Assembly: GCA_007692455.1 (NCBI GenBank)
Contig: RECC01000081.1
Location: 1 to 51,110, forward strand
From: Alkalibacterium sp.
Lineage (GTDB): Bacteria; Bacillota; Bacilli; Lactobacillales; Carnobacteriaceae_A
Direction of reading: 5' to 3'
Length of the DNA: 51,110 nucleotides
A program made the translations under genes and the position numbers. Below the pieces are notes generated by a model. The model worked only from the letters and a program-made list of their open reading frames with translations. It had not been told where the DNA came from and made no database searches. Of this stretch, positions 4,769-37,358 are shown piece by piece. Numbering within the stretch: the first letter of the stretch is position 1; each line of letters opens with the position of its first letter.

Positions 4769-4911
4769 CCAGAAGATTCATTAACCATTTACGGTTATGC
4801 CATAGCCATGTACCGTTTTTTTGGAAATGAACCGAACATCAGCTTCCTTTAATTGGACAAGTGGGGCGAGCGTGTATCAGATGAAAGGCAAACGAACATC
4901 GTCTCCCTTCA
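4769..4911 (+). pseudogene. Decayed C-terminal fragment of an NAD-dependent epimerase
   Basis: Frame from 4772 reads EDSLTIYGYAIAMYRFFGNE then PNISFL, stop, LDKWGERVSDE. This aligns without gaps to the intact epimerase at 26464-27420 (EDSLTLYGYAMAMYRFFGQE, PNINFLSWDKW). The Ser codon TCC of the intact gene is replaced by TAA at 4850-4852, and a further stop follows in the same frame near 4912. No upstream two thirds of the gene remain. It is a relic of a second copy lost by deletion and point mutation. Confidence 0.85.
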
Positions 4912-4999
4912 TTAAAACACGAAGAGAACAATTCAACTTTGAAAGAAACGCCTCTGCTTGCTATACTTATCTAGACTAACCAACAGAAAGGTGTTTTTT

Positions 5000-6484: not shown

Positions 6485-7477
6485 GTGTATTTAAAACAGA
6501 CATTACCATGGTTGCTTTTGTTTTTGTTTTTTAATGTACTGATTCTATCTATCGGATTACTGGATAGTGCTATTCCTAATCTATCCGTTGTATATATCTG
6601 CCTCATTAATTCAGTCGTCCTGTCCCTGTTTTTAATGTGGGACTACTTCAGAGGTAGAGAATATAGACGTGAGTTAATGGATATTGAGCATATCGACGAA
6701 ATAGACAGTCTACCCGTCCCGGTGACCCCTTATCAGAAAAAACTGCAGGCACAGCTATTGGAGATGAGAAACAGTCATTATGCTGCACTGGAAAAAGAGT
6801 CTCAAAAGACGGAAGCCAGCTTAAATGAACTGACAAGATGGATCCATGATTTGAAAATGCCGATGACCACAATGAAACTGATGATTGATGATCTGGATAA
6901 GAGAGATAGCGCAGGGATTGAGCAGGAATGGCTTAGACTGGATGCCATTTTAAATGACATGCTATACGAGAAAAGATTGACTAATATTCATAATGATCTC
7001 TACTTTGAACGCGTTGAAATCAAAAGCGTACTATCCACTATTATCAGAAAACTGCAGACCATTTGTATTGCTAAAGGGATTGGCTTTAACATAGATTTGC
7101 AGATTACGCATGTGGACGCTGATTTGAAGTGGCTGTCGTTTATACTCGATCAGTTAATCACTAATAGCATCAAGTATTCCAAGGATAATGAGGTTGTCAT
7201 TACCAGCTTTGAAAAAGAGGGCTGGGTAGAACTCGTTGTATCTGATGCAGGGAGAGGCATTAGAGCTGAAGATTTGCCTAGGATATTTGAAGCGGGCTTT
7301 ACGTCCACCAGTGACCATGGCAAGAGTGAAGCGACCGGTATGGGTTTATACCTTGCAAAAGAAGCGGCTGATGCTATGGACATTTCCCTGAAAGTAGAAT
7401 CTCAGTACGGAAAAGGCTCTTCTGTTATCTTGACTTTTCCTAAAAAAAACAGGATTCAGCAAGTTCAGACCATGTGA
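6485..7477 (+). CDS. BceS-like intramembrane-sensing histidine kinase
   Basis: 330 residues. There are two N-terminal membrane helices (about 7-26 and 32-52) with almost no extracellular loop, the mark of this kinase class, which senses flux through its partner transporter rather than ligand. The dimerisation and phosphotransfer box is RWIHDLKMPMTT (His121); the ATPase domain has NSIKYS, DAGRGI and TGMGLYL. GTG 6485 is chosen because GGAG (6474-6477) lies seven bases upstream; TTG 6470 overlaps the previous gene and has no site. The 3' end, including the stop codon, lies inside a perfect palindrome. Confidence 0.92.
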   Translation: MYLKQTLPWLLLFLFFNVLILSIGLLDSAIPNLSVVYICLINSVVLSLFLMWDYFRGREYRRELMDIEHIDEIDSLPVPVTPYQKKLQAQLLEMRNSHYAALEKESQKTEASLNELTRWIHDLKMPMTTMKLMIDDLDKRDSAGIEQEWLRLDAILNDMLYEKRLTNIHNDLYFERVEIKSVLSTIIRKLQTICIAKGIGFNIDLQITHVDADLKWLSFILDQLITNSIKYSKDNEVVITSFEKEGWVELVVSDAGRGIRAEDLPRIFEAGFTSTSDHGKSEATGMGLYLAKEAADAMDISLKVESQYGKGSSVILTFPKKNRIQQVQTM

Positions 7478-10472: not shown

Positions 10473-11609
<1,137 letters not shown>

Positions 11610-11639
11610 ACGACACAGATTAATGAAGGAGGAAACTGT

Positions 11640-12491
11640 GTGACTGAACTGGAAAAACTGGAAAAACTGGAAGAACATAAGGTGTTTGGTGGCATGCAAT
11701 ATAAGTACCGTCACCATTCCCAGCTACTGAAGAGTAAAATGACGTTCAGCTTATTTTTACCGGACAAAGAGGCCTTTCCTGATCCACCTGTTTTATGGTG
11801 GCTGTCGGGTCTGACGTGTAACGACGATAACTTTACGCATAAAGCAGGCGCCCAAAGAGCGGCTTCGCGACTGGGTGTAGCCATGGTGGTTCCGGATACG
11901 AGTCCCAGAGGCGAAGCTATAGCAGACTCAGACGACTATGATTTGGGTCAGGGGGCAGGCTTTTATCTGAATGCAACTGAAGAACCTTGGGCAGCTAACT
12001 ATCAGATGGCAGACTATGTTCTAAAGGAATTGACTGAAATAGTGAGAGACGAGTTTAACTTACAGGGGCCTGAATTTTTGTCGGGACACTCGATGGGAGG
12101 CCACGGTGCACTGGTTCTGGGACTAAAAAATCCAGAGCGTTTTCAGTCAATCACTGCCTTCGCACCAATTGTGAATCCCAGCCAGGTTCCGTGGGGCATC
12201 AAAGCCTTTACGCACTATCTGGGTGAAGACCAATCAGACTGGAAGCAGTGGGATGCTCTGGAGCTTATGAAAGAGCATACAGGCAAACAGATTCCGATAC
12301 TAATTGACCAAGGGGATGCGGATGGCTTTTATAACAAAGAGCTGCAGCCGGAAGTCTTCAAAAAAGCTGCGGAAGCTGCTGATTATCCAGTGGCTCTGCG
12401 CATGCAGGCAGGACACGACCACAGCTACTATACTATCGCGACCTTTATCGAAGAACATCTGGAATTCCATCTGGATCACTTAACTCAATAG
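11640..12491 (+). CDS. fghA: S-formylglutathione hydrolase
   Basis: 283 residues of the esterase D family. It has VLWWLSGLTCNDDNF, the charge-relay nucleophile Ser151 in SGHSMGGHGA, an Asp in LIDQGDADGF and the catalytic His in AGHDHSYY. It releases formate and glutathione from S-formylglutathione, completing the pathway started by adhC 30 bp upstream. GTG 11640 follows AAGGAGG. The first codons contain a short CTGGAAAAA tandem repeat encoding a LEK-LEK-LEE extension, so the N-terminus is slightly longer than in the enzymes I recall. Confidence 0.95.
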   Translation: MTELEKLEKLEEHKVFGGMQYKYRHHSQLLKSKMTFSLFLPDKEAFPDPPVLWWLSGLTCNDDNFTHKAGAQRAASRLGVAMVVPDTSPRGEAIADSDDYDLGQGAGFYLNATEEPWAANYQMADYVLKELTEIVRDEFNLQGPEFLSGHSMGGHGALVLGLKNPERFQSITAFAPIVNPSQVPWGIKAFTHYLGEDQSDWKQWDALELMKEHTGKQIPILIDQGDADGFYNKELQPEVFKKAAEAADYPVALRMQAGHDHSYYTIATFIEEHLEFHLDHLTQ

Positions 12492-26463: not shown

Positions 26464-27420
26464 ATGAAAGTAGTTGTTATTGGAGGAAGTGGGCATATCG
26501 GGTCTTATCTGATTCCTATGCTGGTTCGTGAAAATCATCAGGTTACTATGGTCAGTCGAGGAAAGAGCAAGCCGTATGTCAGGGACTGGGCCTGGGACAA
26601 GGCTGAACTGGTTTCGATGGACCGCAGCAAGGAACCGGATTTTGCTGAAAAAATTGCTGAGATGAATGCCGATGTGGTGATTGATTTGATTTGCTTCAAG
26701 CTGGAAGAAGTCAAAGAGATGGTCGCAGCACTCAAAGACACTGATTTGTCGCACTATCTCTACTGTTCAACAATCTGGACACACGGACGGGCAGAAACCA
26801 TTCCGGCAGACCCGAACGGCGTGAAGCAGCCGCTGGACGAATACGGGCGTCAGAAATACGAGAGTGAAAAATACCTGATGCACGAATACCGCGTTAACCA
26901 GTTCCCGGTATCGATAGTGAGTCCAGGTCAAATCTGCGGTCCGGGCTGGTCAATCATCAATCCGCTGGGCTATGGTGGGGACGATGTATTCCAGACAATC
27001 GCTGACGGAAAAGAAATCAGCCTGCCTAATCACGGCATGGAAACCCTCCATCCTGTTCACGGAGAAGATGTGGCCCAAGTATTTATGGCTGCGATGACTC
27101 ACCGGACTCAGGCTTTGGGTCAAAATTTCCATGCGGTATCTGAAGACTCTCTGACACTTTACGGCTACGCTATGGCGATGTACCGCTTCTTTGGACAGGA
27201 ACCGAATATTAACTTCCTTTCCTGGGACAAGTGGGTCGATTATGTTGAGAGTGATAAGAAAGCCAGCATTTCCTACCATCATATTGCCCGCAGCGGTTAC
27301 TACAGTATTGAGAATGCTAAAGAGCTGATCGGTTACCGACCAAGATATACGTCAACTCAAGTCGTGGAAGCCAGTATTCAAAGTTATGTCGACCGTAGCG
27401 TCATTAATGTGAAGAAGTAG
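26464..27420 (+). CDS. NAD-dependent epimerase/dehydratase-like protein (extended SDR)
   Basis: 318 residues. It has the N-terminal Rossmann motif GGSGHIG (7-13), active-site Tyr127 and Lys131 (YGRQK), and the substrate domain with HPVHGEDVAQVF. The family acts on nucleotide sugars or related carbonyls; no closer substrate can be set. ATG 26464 follows AGGAGG. A relic of a second copy lies at 4769-4911. Directly behind the stop codon a 51-bp-period hairpin array begins, so the array would be in its 3' untranslated region, before the terminator at 27774. Confidence 0.88.
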   Translation: MKVVVIGGSGHIGSYLIPMLVRENHQVTMVSRGKSKPYVRDWAWDKAELVSMDRSKEPDFAEKIAEMNADVVIDLICFKLEEVKEMVAALKDTDLSHYLYCSTIWTHGRAETIPADPNGVKQPLDEYGRQKYESEKYLMHEYRVNQFPVSIVSPGQICGPGWSIINPLGYGGDDVFQTIADGKEISLPNHGMETLHPVHGEDVAQVFMAAMTHRTQALGQNFHAVSEDSLTLYGYAMAMYRFFGQEPNINFLSWDKWVDYVESDKKASISYHHIARSGYYSIENAKELIGYRPRYTSTQVVEASIQSYVDRSVINVKK

Positions 27421-27703
27421 CGTTTCTGATAGGCATTGAGACTAGTTGGGAGCGTAGAGGCTTCATTAAGTTGTCTCAAAAACAGTTTAGTGACCAGTTG
27501 ATACGCCTTTTTAAGTTGAACTTGACGCAATAACGGTATTGAGACAAGTTGCTTTTGAAATGCTGAAAGAAGTTGTCACAAAAGCCTCTTTGAGACTACT
27601 TTATATGCAGAAATCAAATAAAATAGTGCCAAAACGCGTATTGAGACAACTTCACTGCTGAGAGATTAAAGAACTTGCTTCAAAACAGTTTTAGTGACCA
27701 GTT
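27415..27703. repeat. Tandem hairpin array, period 51 bp, about six units
   Basis: Left arms (12 bp, type AAGTTGTCTCAA) start at 27468, 27519, 27570, 27621 and 27672, exactly 51 bp apart. Right arms (type TTGAGACAAGTT) end at 27447, 27499, 27550, 27601, 27652 and 27703. Each left arm is the inverse complement of the right arm 8 nt later (AAGTTGTCTCAA against TTGAGACAACTT), so each unit is an arm-loop-arm hairpin followed by a 19-nt spacer of unrelated sequence. Units are diverged. There is no coding frame: TGA and TAG lie in the arms. Confidence 0.85.
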
Positions 27704-27720
27704 ATGGTTTTGATTAGACA

Positions 27721-27745
27721 GGAAATGGTCTCGATGACCATTTCC
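27721..27745. repeat. Perfect 10-bp hairpin after the array
   Basis: GGAAATGGTC and GACCATTTCC pair perfectly around TCGAT. There is no T tract, and it is not a copy of the array unit. Confidence 0.7.
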
Positions 27746-27773
27746 ATCAATTTAAAAACAAATAAAATAAGGA

Positions 27774-27800
27774 AAAGTCCTGCCGAGTCAGGACTTTTTT
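27774..27800 (+). terminator. Terminator downstream of the epimerase gene and array
   Basis: AAAGTCCTG and CAGGACTTT pair across CCGAGT and are followed by TTT. About 250 bp remain before the ABC gene; no gene is seen there. Confidence 0.88.
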
Positions 27801-28074
27801 GATTGTGTTTTAAAAGATTCAGAATTAAAAAAAATTCTCGAATTGGAAAAGAAATTTTTTCACAGAATAATCTCTAAGGTATTGAGTCATCGAGTCAAAA
27901 GATTTATGCTATAAGATGGAATATCAAAAGCTGTCTATGTATCATTAAAACTGAAGTTCAGGAGTAGGTTAAAGCCAGCAGGAAATTCACTAACAAAAAA
28001 TAAGTTAATCCATGCTATAATAAATAGCGGACAGTATCACCTAAATGAATAACCAAAAAGGAGATTCACACGAA

Positions 28075-29007
28075 ATGACTTACGCACTTGAGATAAATGA
28101 TTTAAAAAAGGTTTATACCGGTGGGGTTGAAGCCCTGCGCGGTATTGATTTAAAAGTAGAAGAAGGCGACTTCTATGCGCTGCTGGGACCCAATGGCGCC
28201 GGGAAATCAACAACAATTGGGATCATCACGTCTCTGGTCAACAAAACTTCCGGAAAAGTGAAGGTGTTCGACTATGATATCGATGGTGAACTGATGCAGG
28301 CCAAACGACAAATCGGTCTGGTTCCTCAGGAGTTCAATTTCAACCCGTTTGAAACAGTCCAGCAAATTGTTGTGAATCAGGCGGGCTACTATGGTGTACC
28401 GCGTAAAGAAGCAATGGAGCGCAGTGAAAAATACTTGAAGCAGTCCGACTTGTGGGGAAAGCGCGACACCCGTGCCCGCATGCTTTCCGGTGGGATGAAG
28501 CGCCGGCTGATGATTGCCCGTGCACTGATGCACGAACCGCGCCTGCTGATTCTGGACGAACCGACAGCCGGTGTTGACATCGAACTGCGCCGGGATATGT
28601 GGCGTTTCCTCAAGGAACTGAATGAGAGCGGCACAACCATCATCCTGACCACGCACTACCTTGAAGAAGCTGAAATGCTCTGCCGGAACATCGGTATCAT
28701 TCAAAAAGGTGAACTGATTGAAGACACCAGCATGAAAACCCTGCTGGCAAAACTGCAGTTCGAAACCTTTATTCTGGATATTGAACCGACGGGCGCTAAG
28801 CCAATCATTACAGGCTTTGACAGTGAGCTGGTTGATCAATCCACACTGACTGTTGAAGTTGCCCGCAATCAGGGAATCAATGAAGTCTTCGAACAGCTCT
28901 CTGAACAGGGCATTAAAGTCCTGTCTATGCGAAACAAGTCTAACAGGCTGGAAGAACTGTTTTTGAAACTGACAGAAAATACCGATTTGGAGGATACTCA
29001 TGTTTAA
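28075..29007 (+). CDS. yadG: YadG-type ABC transporter ATPase
   Basis: 310 residues. Walker A GPNGAGKS (38-45), signature MLSGGMKRRLMIARAL, Walker B LLILDEPTAGVD and LTTHYLEEAE are present. The wording of long blocks (VPQEFNFNPFETVQQIVVNQ, then AGYYGV) agrees almost letter for letter with E. coli YadG as I remember it, far closer than other Firmicutes DrrA-like ATPases. GC content and codon choice (CGC, CTG, GCC) are higher than in neighbours, which suggests transfer from Gammaproteobacteria. ATG 28075 matches the YadG start (MTxALE); ATG 28045 precedes the ribosome site AAAGGAG. The exported substrate is unknown. Confidence 0.9.
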   Translation: MTYALEINDLKKVYTGGVEALRGIDLKVEEGDFYALLGPNGAGKSTTIGIITSLVNKTSGKVKVFDYDIDGELMQAKRQIGLVPQEFNFNPFETVQQIVVNQAGYYGVPRKEAMERSEKYLKQSDLWGKRDTRARMLSGGMKRRLMIARALMHEPRLLILDEPTAGVDIELRRDMWRFLKELNESGTTIILTTHYLEEAEMLCRNIGIIQKGELIEDTSMKTLLAKLQFETFILDIEPTGAKPIITGFDSELVDQSTLTVEVARNQGINEVFEQLSEQGIKVLSMRNKSNRLEELFLKLTENTDLEDTHV

Positions 29008-36887: not shown

Positions 36888-37283
36888 AAAGTTGCGAGCA
36901 GAGTCCTAACTTCGGCATGCTCAAGAGGAAGACGCTTTTGAGTAATGCCAAGCTGGACTATCTTAGGTAAGCTCAGGCTATAGATTCAAGTGAGTAATGC
37001 TAAGTAGGACCACCTTAGGTAAACTCAGATGGAAGAATACATTGAGTGGTGCTAAGTCAGTAAAACTTCGGTTAAGTCAGTAGAAATTTCCAACGAGTAG
37101 TGCTAACTAAACACACCTTCGGCAAACTGAAAAGAAAAATACAAATGAGTATTCCAAAGGTGACCCTTCTTCGGCAAGCTCAGAAGAAAAGTCCAGGCGA
37201 GTAATGCCAAGGACCACCACCTTAGGTAAACTCAAATGATTACGCAGAGCGAGTGATGCTAAGGCCCTAAACTTAGTAAGTTT
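36888..37283. repeat. Tandem hairpin array, period 52 bp, seven clear units plus one degenerate
   Basis: Left arms of 13 bp (consensus GAGTAATGCYAAG) start at 36940, 36992, 37044, 37095, 37147, 37199 and 37251; spacings are 52, 52, 51, 52, 52, 52. Right arms (CTTAGGTAAACTC or CTTCGGCAAGCTC) start at 36910, 36962, 37014, 37066, 37117, 37169 and 37221, with a degenerate last one at 37272. GAGT pairs with RCTC and CTAAG with CTTAG around a symmetric internal loop (AATG opposite GTAA). Loops of 9 nt and spacers of 17 nt are not conserved. The period is not a multiple of three, so it is not coding. Confidence 0.88.
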
Positions 37284-37358
37284 GGATAGAAAAAAAGTCA
37301 GTCCAGCTGAATTAATTGATTCCATAGGTTAATCCGAGACTGAAGGAGCGTCATAAGA

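Follow-up and report, generated by a model that had tools for sequence, protein, structure and literature searches.

A 51-bp array of half-sites downstream of a putative epimerase gene

The window, a DNA stretch of 51,110 nucleotides from Alkalibacterium sp., contains a tandem array between two genes of the same strand. The upstream gene, a putative epimerase by the name given in the initial annotation, has its closest named relatives in Alkalibacterium. At 4769-4984 the window also has a degraded remnant of this gene, a partial copy with 43% identity and in-frame stops. The features of the locus are listed in Table 1.

Table 1. Features of the epimerase locus and of the second array in the window
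Feature	Position	Strand	Remark
Upstream gene, putative epimerase	26464..27420	+	15 bp between gene and array
Whole A-type array	27436..27734	.	lone right half-site, five left-8-right units at 51 bp, lone left half-site
Lone right half-site R0 (TTGAGACTAGTT)	27436..27447	.	array start; one bp out of register
Unit 1 (12-8-12)	27468..27499	.	
Unit 2	27519..27550	.	
Unit 3	27570..27601	.	
Unit 4	27621..27652	.	
Unit 5	27672..27703	.	
Lone left half-site L6 (AAATGGTCTCGA)	27723..27734	.	within short palindrome 27721-27745 (by eye)
Terminator-like hairpin and T-run	27773..27800	+	3' of array; by eye, no tool score
Next downstream gene	28045..29007	+	same strand; window copy lies between tandem, not convergent, genes
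Second array, B-type	36888..37310	.	like design, different sequence, mostly 52-bp steps, between divergent genes

Analysis of the array in 27421-28044 confirmed its 51-bp periodicity, with a lag-51 self-similarity of z 6.6 that was reached by none of 1000 dinucleotide-preserving shuffles (best 5.4). The exact 51-bp steps of the left arms, the 12 + 8 + 12 units and the 19-bp spacers described in the initial annotation were all recovered. That annotation had also given the array as 27415-27703 and its arms as 12-bp pairs. The array and the arm length are correct; the limits extend to a lone half-site at each end (Table 1), and the arms are not fully paired, with 7-10 Watson-Crick pairs of 12 in the window units. 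Among related arrays, here called A-type, a right half-site precedes the first unit in 33 of 39 and a left half-site follows the last unit in 34 of 40. Because both end half-sites are present in 29 of 39 scorable arrays (lenient threshold), the natural module runs from a right half-site across 19 bp to a left half-site; consecutive modules are separated by 8 bp, and their register is shifted by half a period from the unit first described.

The second array, noted earlier as having the same design with an unrelated sequence, is real. Five of its six steps are 52 bp, and B-type relatives were found in genome G008 (mostly 51-bp steps) and, as a weak one, in G011. A third array type of the window's own genome (GATACAACT...AGTTGTATC; 52 bp; G000:C25, locus L170, about 2690-2870) lies upstream of another gene of the NERD type described below. 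A further array (L138; G009:C21; lag 51, z 8.5) was observed near a Y1 transposase gene.

Distribution and genomic placement of A-type arrays

The window array matches five other contigs of its own genome, so that the search for further 51-bp arrays proposed in the initial annotation was positive; compared side by side by eye, these copies are alike unit by unit. A sequence-only model built from 60 two-unit windows detected A-type arrays (E <= 0.001) in 11 of the 12 genomes of the genus and in 13 of the 27 of the family. At E <= 1e-6 they occur in 12 of 395 order genomes, all from the genus Alkalibacterium and one sister genus. Reading the sequence 3' of the epimerase gene in eight related genomes revealed arrays in G004, G011 and G006 (short and recognised by A-type unit score only) and none in G005, G007, G008, G009 and G010. 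Periodic arms at this locus, whose absence from a second genome had been named as part of a refutation, are thus present elsewhere.

In G011 (L040), two extra 3' fragments (1415-1753 and 6735-7244) of a gene that we take to be sufB accompany the full gene at 10548-11963, with arrays nearby; insertion or duplication may have recurred at this gene end, which bears an array. The arrays of L083, L084, L090 and L091 have common flanks on both sides and terminator-like hairpins left and right (by eye). Since the flanks are shared on both sides, an element longer than the array may have been copied there.

A-type arrays lie preferentially between convergent genes. Their neighbours are convergent in 27 of 36 cases, tandem in nine and divergent in none; the other 4 of the 40 arrays were left out, as their locus shows a gene on just one side. 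With orthologous-neighbour loci merged, 20 of 25 independent loci are convergent compared with 41 of 244 array-free gaps. These background gaps come from a set of loci selected in part for an array or a NERD gene, less the gaps that bear an array. In this set, which includes many NERD loci, arrays of any type occupy 20 tandem, 18 convergent and five divergent gaps, and the six B-type arrays have two convergent, three tandem and one divergent neighbour pairs. The convergent-gene bias holds for the A-type and is not shown for all array types.

A coding repeat was considered, 51 being a multiple of three and an ORF of at least 70 aa overlapping 8 of the 40 A-type arrays. It was rejected as a general reading because the window array has stops in all six frames (4 to 10 in each) and periods of 52 or 41 bp are common among the arrays.

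The arms do not covary

Unit steps in the 40 A-type arrays are exactly 51 bp in 128 of 132 cases (two of 50, two of 52). These arrays, all of the A-type, provided 172 units with 140 distinct arm pairs for a covariation test. On average 9.19 of 12 positions were paired, the same as when right arms were dealt at random (9.19; z -0.1); a control pairing gave z -0.1, and pairing across the 19-bp spacer was below random (z -2.6). The covariation check on units from several genomes, proposed in the initial annotation, therefore gives no support for pairing. The C-G/G-C change at the third arm position of units 2, 3 and 5, taken there as a hint of compensation, proved selective, as units 1 and 4 are mismatched at it; over the 140 distinct arm pairs this position is paired in 44% compared with 50% in shuffles. 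Because pairing equals random dealing and spacer pairing falls below it, the arms resemble a degenerate half-site present twice rather than a stem. Given arms that do not covary, the near-invariant 51-bp step and the placement between convergent genes, the array is best read as a series of sites in double-stranded DNA rather than as RNA hairpins, which were rejected on the covariation and spacer results.

The array could still be transcribed, as a multi-hairpin 3' UTR or a noncoding RNA that is possibly bound by the NERD protein. Both in the window and at many NERD genes, a stop codon lies no more than tens of bp from the start of the array, which may thus be part of the mRNA. We nevertheless regard this as improbable: besides the missing covariation, a period near whole DNA helix turns (see below) speaks against it, several copies lie beyond terminator-like hairpins (by eye), and with 27 of 36 A-type arrays between convergent genes, a transcribed 3' structure does not stand as a general rule. 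Comparison with Rfam 15 revealed no match above the gathering score in the array, the only match in the window being a ribosomal protein L13 leader (RF00555) at 745-799.

Arrays adjoin genes for NERD-domain proteins

Comparing the genes that flank the arrays revealed one protein type, of about 305 aa with a NERD domain, beside five arrays including a B-type one. All three partner proteins scanned match Pfam PF08378 with 54.5-68.7 bits (curated cut-off 22.1), and each of the 12 genus genomes contains 4-11 NERD matches. A subset of the PF08378 matches, 101 distinct ORFs, was reduced to 95 by removing three shorter than 200 aa and duplicate or near-identical ones (L112, L143, L225). Arrays were called at z >= 6 within 700 bp of the gene with Ns masked, runs of N having mimicked lag 65 at L215, L220 and L239.

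Within 700 bp, 51 of 80 group-1 NERD genes have an array (47 of 80 when calls are restricted to lags 40, 41 and 51-53), and the other 29 have none at this threshold. Arrays are found equally upstream and downstream (28 and 28). Of these 56 flank calls, 50 have a lag of 51 or 52 and six have lags of 39, 42, 57 and 66. In group 2, which is more distant, 12 of 15 genes have an array within 700 bp, all at lag 40 or 41. Among other genes 4 of 53 have an array, each of these genes being a neighbour of the window arrays or of the array at the L037 epimerase. Of 38 pieces of 3.3 kb, 4 gave a signal: the two with the window arrays, L037 and one close to a Y1 gene.

The association extends across Bacilli. 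A protein search (E <= 1e-10) detected NERD relatives in 55 of 398 Bacilli genomes, and the best match in each of 30 of these genomes, including contig C29 of the window's own genome, was examined. A downstream array was present within 700 bp at 29 of these 30 class loci (28 of 29 without the own-genome locus), and in 24 of the 29 the repeat starts no more than 60 bp from the stop of the NERD ORF. Three of the 29 also have an upstream repeat signal, one of them at the unlike lag of 34. Random 4-kb stretches of the class genomes gave a signal in 5 of 38. Since three of these signals are strong and share the period of the NERD array of that genome, arrays appear to be dispersed in the class genomes as well. 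One NERD-side Bacilli array has 30 matches in G627 (some overlapping, one being the query) and 13 in G484.

In the window's own genome, a NERD gene (G000:C29:2602-3561) has an A-type array just downstream. The ORF list of the window contains no NERD gene adjoining the window array, which is a dispersed NERD-less copy of the A-type array. Array similarity follows NERD similarity (Spearman 0.173 over 84 genes; maximum of 500 permutations 0.102). The trend is modest, close pairs are often orthologues, and below 45% NERD identity array similarity is no greater than background. Adjacency of NERD gene and array does not in itself amount to binding.

Array periods are close to whole helix turns

The periods of 84 NERD-adjacent arrays are 39-42 (19 arrays), 51-53 (61), 57 (1) and 62-63 bp (3). 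With a helix turn of about 10.4 bp, these values are near 4, 5 or 6 turns, largely by clade: among the class loci the period is 42 in family f11, 41 in f48, 62-63 in four of six members of f17 (one has 51, one none) and 51-53 elsewhere. Two f11 loci (L276, L277) have NERD-linked 42-bp arrays with a further 63-bp signal and little inverted symmetry; a 21-bp, two-turn sub-period would give both values.

AT content is phased with the helix. Of 25 harmonics tested, the fifth (10.2 bp) is the strongest in both types (124 A-type and 24 B-type units). When 15 AT harmonics were ranked in each of 60 non-redundant arrays, the one matching the number of turns came first in 18, compared with 9.8% of noncoding and 6.3% of random stretches, where arrays are averaged over their copies and the controls are single stretches. 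A palindromic unit consensus (at least 10 of 12) was found in 23 of 48 well-kept arrays compared with 3.8% in shuffles, and the other 25 of 48 have an inverted symmetry below 10 of 12. Neither the NERD link nor the near-whole-turn period was visible in the initial annotation, of which the regular array, its like-designed second array and the periodic arms in other genomes stand, and compensatory pairing and transcription as a rule do not.

These properties would also suit a chromosome-topology site of the host, that is, phased bendable DNA at transcript ends for gyrase or another wrapping protein, as in E. coli BIME-2, with NERD incidental or acting only as the spreader. Both the placement of the A-type between convergent genes (20 of 25 independent loci) and the AT phasing of the arrays agree with this. 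Most NERD lineages, however, have array sequences unrelated to one another, whereas gyrase is a single conserved enzyme, and the NERD gene at 29 of 30 class loci would need another reason. According to PMC6379681, BIME-2 is cut by gyrase and the arms of the gyrase motif have a GC content with a period of about 10.75 bp, but blocking transcription did not lower gyrase cutting in BIME-2. We consider a host topology site unlikely, though the likeliest of the alternatives weighed here.

Conserved residues of the NERD proteins

An alignment of 43 diverse NERD proteins, chosen among array-bearing ones, showed R22, G39, G42, E43, D63, Q74, D76, K91 and three of the four zinc-ribbon cysteines to be invariant, and E89, the fourth cysteine and W274 to be conserved in at least 90%. 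In group 2 (16 sequences), D85, E98 and K100 are invariant, and the pattern G, G, D, E-x-K-N and three of four cysteines are invariably kept. From this pattern and the residues typical of the fold, the conserved positions are putatively an active PD-(D/E)XK site. Solved-structure relatives gave weak matches, mostly to the zinc-ribbon part.

Conserved putative nuclease residues and several diverged NERD copies per genome could also suggest a defence device, in which the array would keep the NERD nuclease inactive until an invader frees it. Searches with PADLOC and NCBIfam profiles gave weak matches to the defence proteins PglW (28 of 43), MkoA (22 of 43) and MAD6 (35 of 43), with a few others in one member each, but no match to a dedicated defence family among the 43 proteins. 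As a defence device would moreover leave the dispersed NERD-less arrays unexplained, we assign it a low probability, similar to that of a transcribed array.

A weak match to one PHROGs family of unknown function was found in 35 of the 43 proteins. At the sensitivities used, no NERD relatives were detected in viral contigs (one protein and the alignment as queries), in a phage collection (one protein) or in a plasmid collection (two proteins). Because these collections yielded no relatives, mobility of the proposed NERD element is a hypothesis, despite the PHROGs match.

A proposed two-part element of NERD protein and array

The window array is, on balance, probably a dispersed copy of the repeat partner in a two-part element that consists of a NERD protein and its cognate tandem array, in which NERD dimers would bind, cut and spread the array. 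The best reading of this element is a REPtron-like but non-homologous combination of nuclease and array. The inverted 12-bp half-sites, with centres about 20 and 31 bp apart in a 51-bp unit of about five turns, would lie roughly on one helix face. The partner would be the NERD-domain protein with its PD-(D/E)XK-like core, zinc ribbon and C-terminal tail, dimers of which may bind the half-sites and align on a bent or wrapped array. Its putative nuclease core could then nick or cut at or near the array. Repair might subsequently homogenise and lengthen the array and copy it to other sites, mostly gene 3' ends, where the copies would persist as nucleoprotein sites. Whether this represents a new element class of Bacilli is, in our estimate, evenly balanced: such a class would comprise a PD-(D/E)XK-like NERD protein and its own array, with a unit of about 4, 5 or 6 turns depending on the protein clade, and would copy and homogenise this array around the chromosome at gene ends.

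Comparison with known systems

Regular repeats beside a nuclease-like gene recall CRISPR; here, however, the 19-bp spacers repeat between units in homogenised arrays (L074), and the arms vary in diverged arrays. By their 12-8-12 anatomy, the units could also be considered candidate loxP-like sites of a tyrosine recombinase. The partner proteins share the name of their domain with S. aureus SmdA. SmdA is, according to PMC9040797, a membrane cell-division factor without several of the most conserved NERD residues, whereas the partners described here keep E, D, E-x-K and four cysteines. The same paper (2022) states that the importance of the NERD domain had previously been unstudied in any bacterial protein. 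Among the papers listed from the open literature, a body that mostly excludes subscription papers, no title or beginning of an abstract concerned NERD proteins with repeats.

With E. coli BIME-2 the arrays have in common that they are intergenic arrays of palindromes, and gyrase is described as preferring phased DNA (PMC6379681). They differ in that their sequence varies between NERD lineages, and as gyrase sites they would be candidates.

The closest likeness in layout is to REPtrons (REP/BIME with RAYT), in which, as described in PMC8266576, the repeat type differs between protein lineages and cognate palindromic repeats occur both near the gene and dispersed. The proposed NERD-array element likewise has repeats near and away from its cognate gene and an array type that varies by NERD lineage. 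It fails two of the defining REPtron features tested, the Y1 transposase and the arm pairing expected of a repeat that is recognised as a single-stranded hairpin. The partner is a NERD-domain protein, whereas RAYT (TnpA-REP) is an HUH Y1 transposase, and the arrays are tandem with a period near whole helix turns and arms that do not covary (A-type). The Y1 HUH transposase domain (PF01797) is present in 5 of 12 genus genomes and in 4 of 11 that bear A-type arrays. It was not found in the other 7 of 11, namely G000 (89.5% complete), G001, G003, G005, G007, G008 and G010, and a RAYT/REP reading was rejected on this absence.

Many Bacilli have several copies of such NERD proteins, for which no role was found in the literature examined. 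Their link to cognate arrays with helix-phased units points to a testable function and would account for a group of intergenic repeats scattered through these genomes. Natural DNA scaffolds with a regular 41-, 52- or 62-bp phasing may in addition be of use in studies of protein wrapping. The NERD-array element would parallel the REPtron while consisting of unrelated parts, providing the first role for such a stand-alone NERD protein and a second, independent case of the problem posed by REP and RAYT, that of keeping and spreading a nuclease and its repeats in a chromosome.
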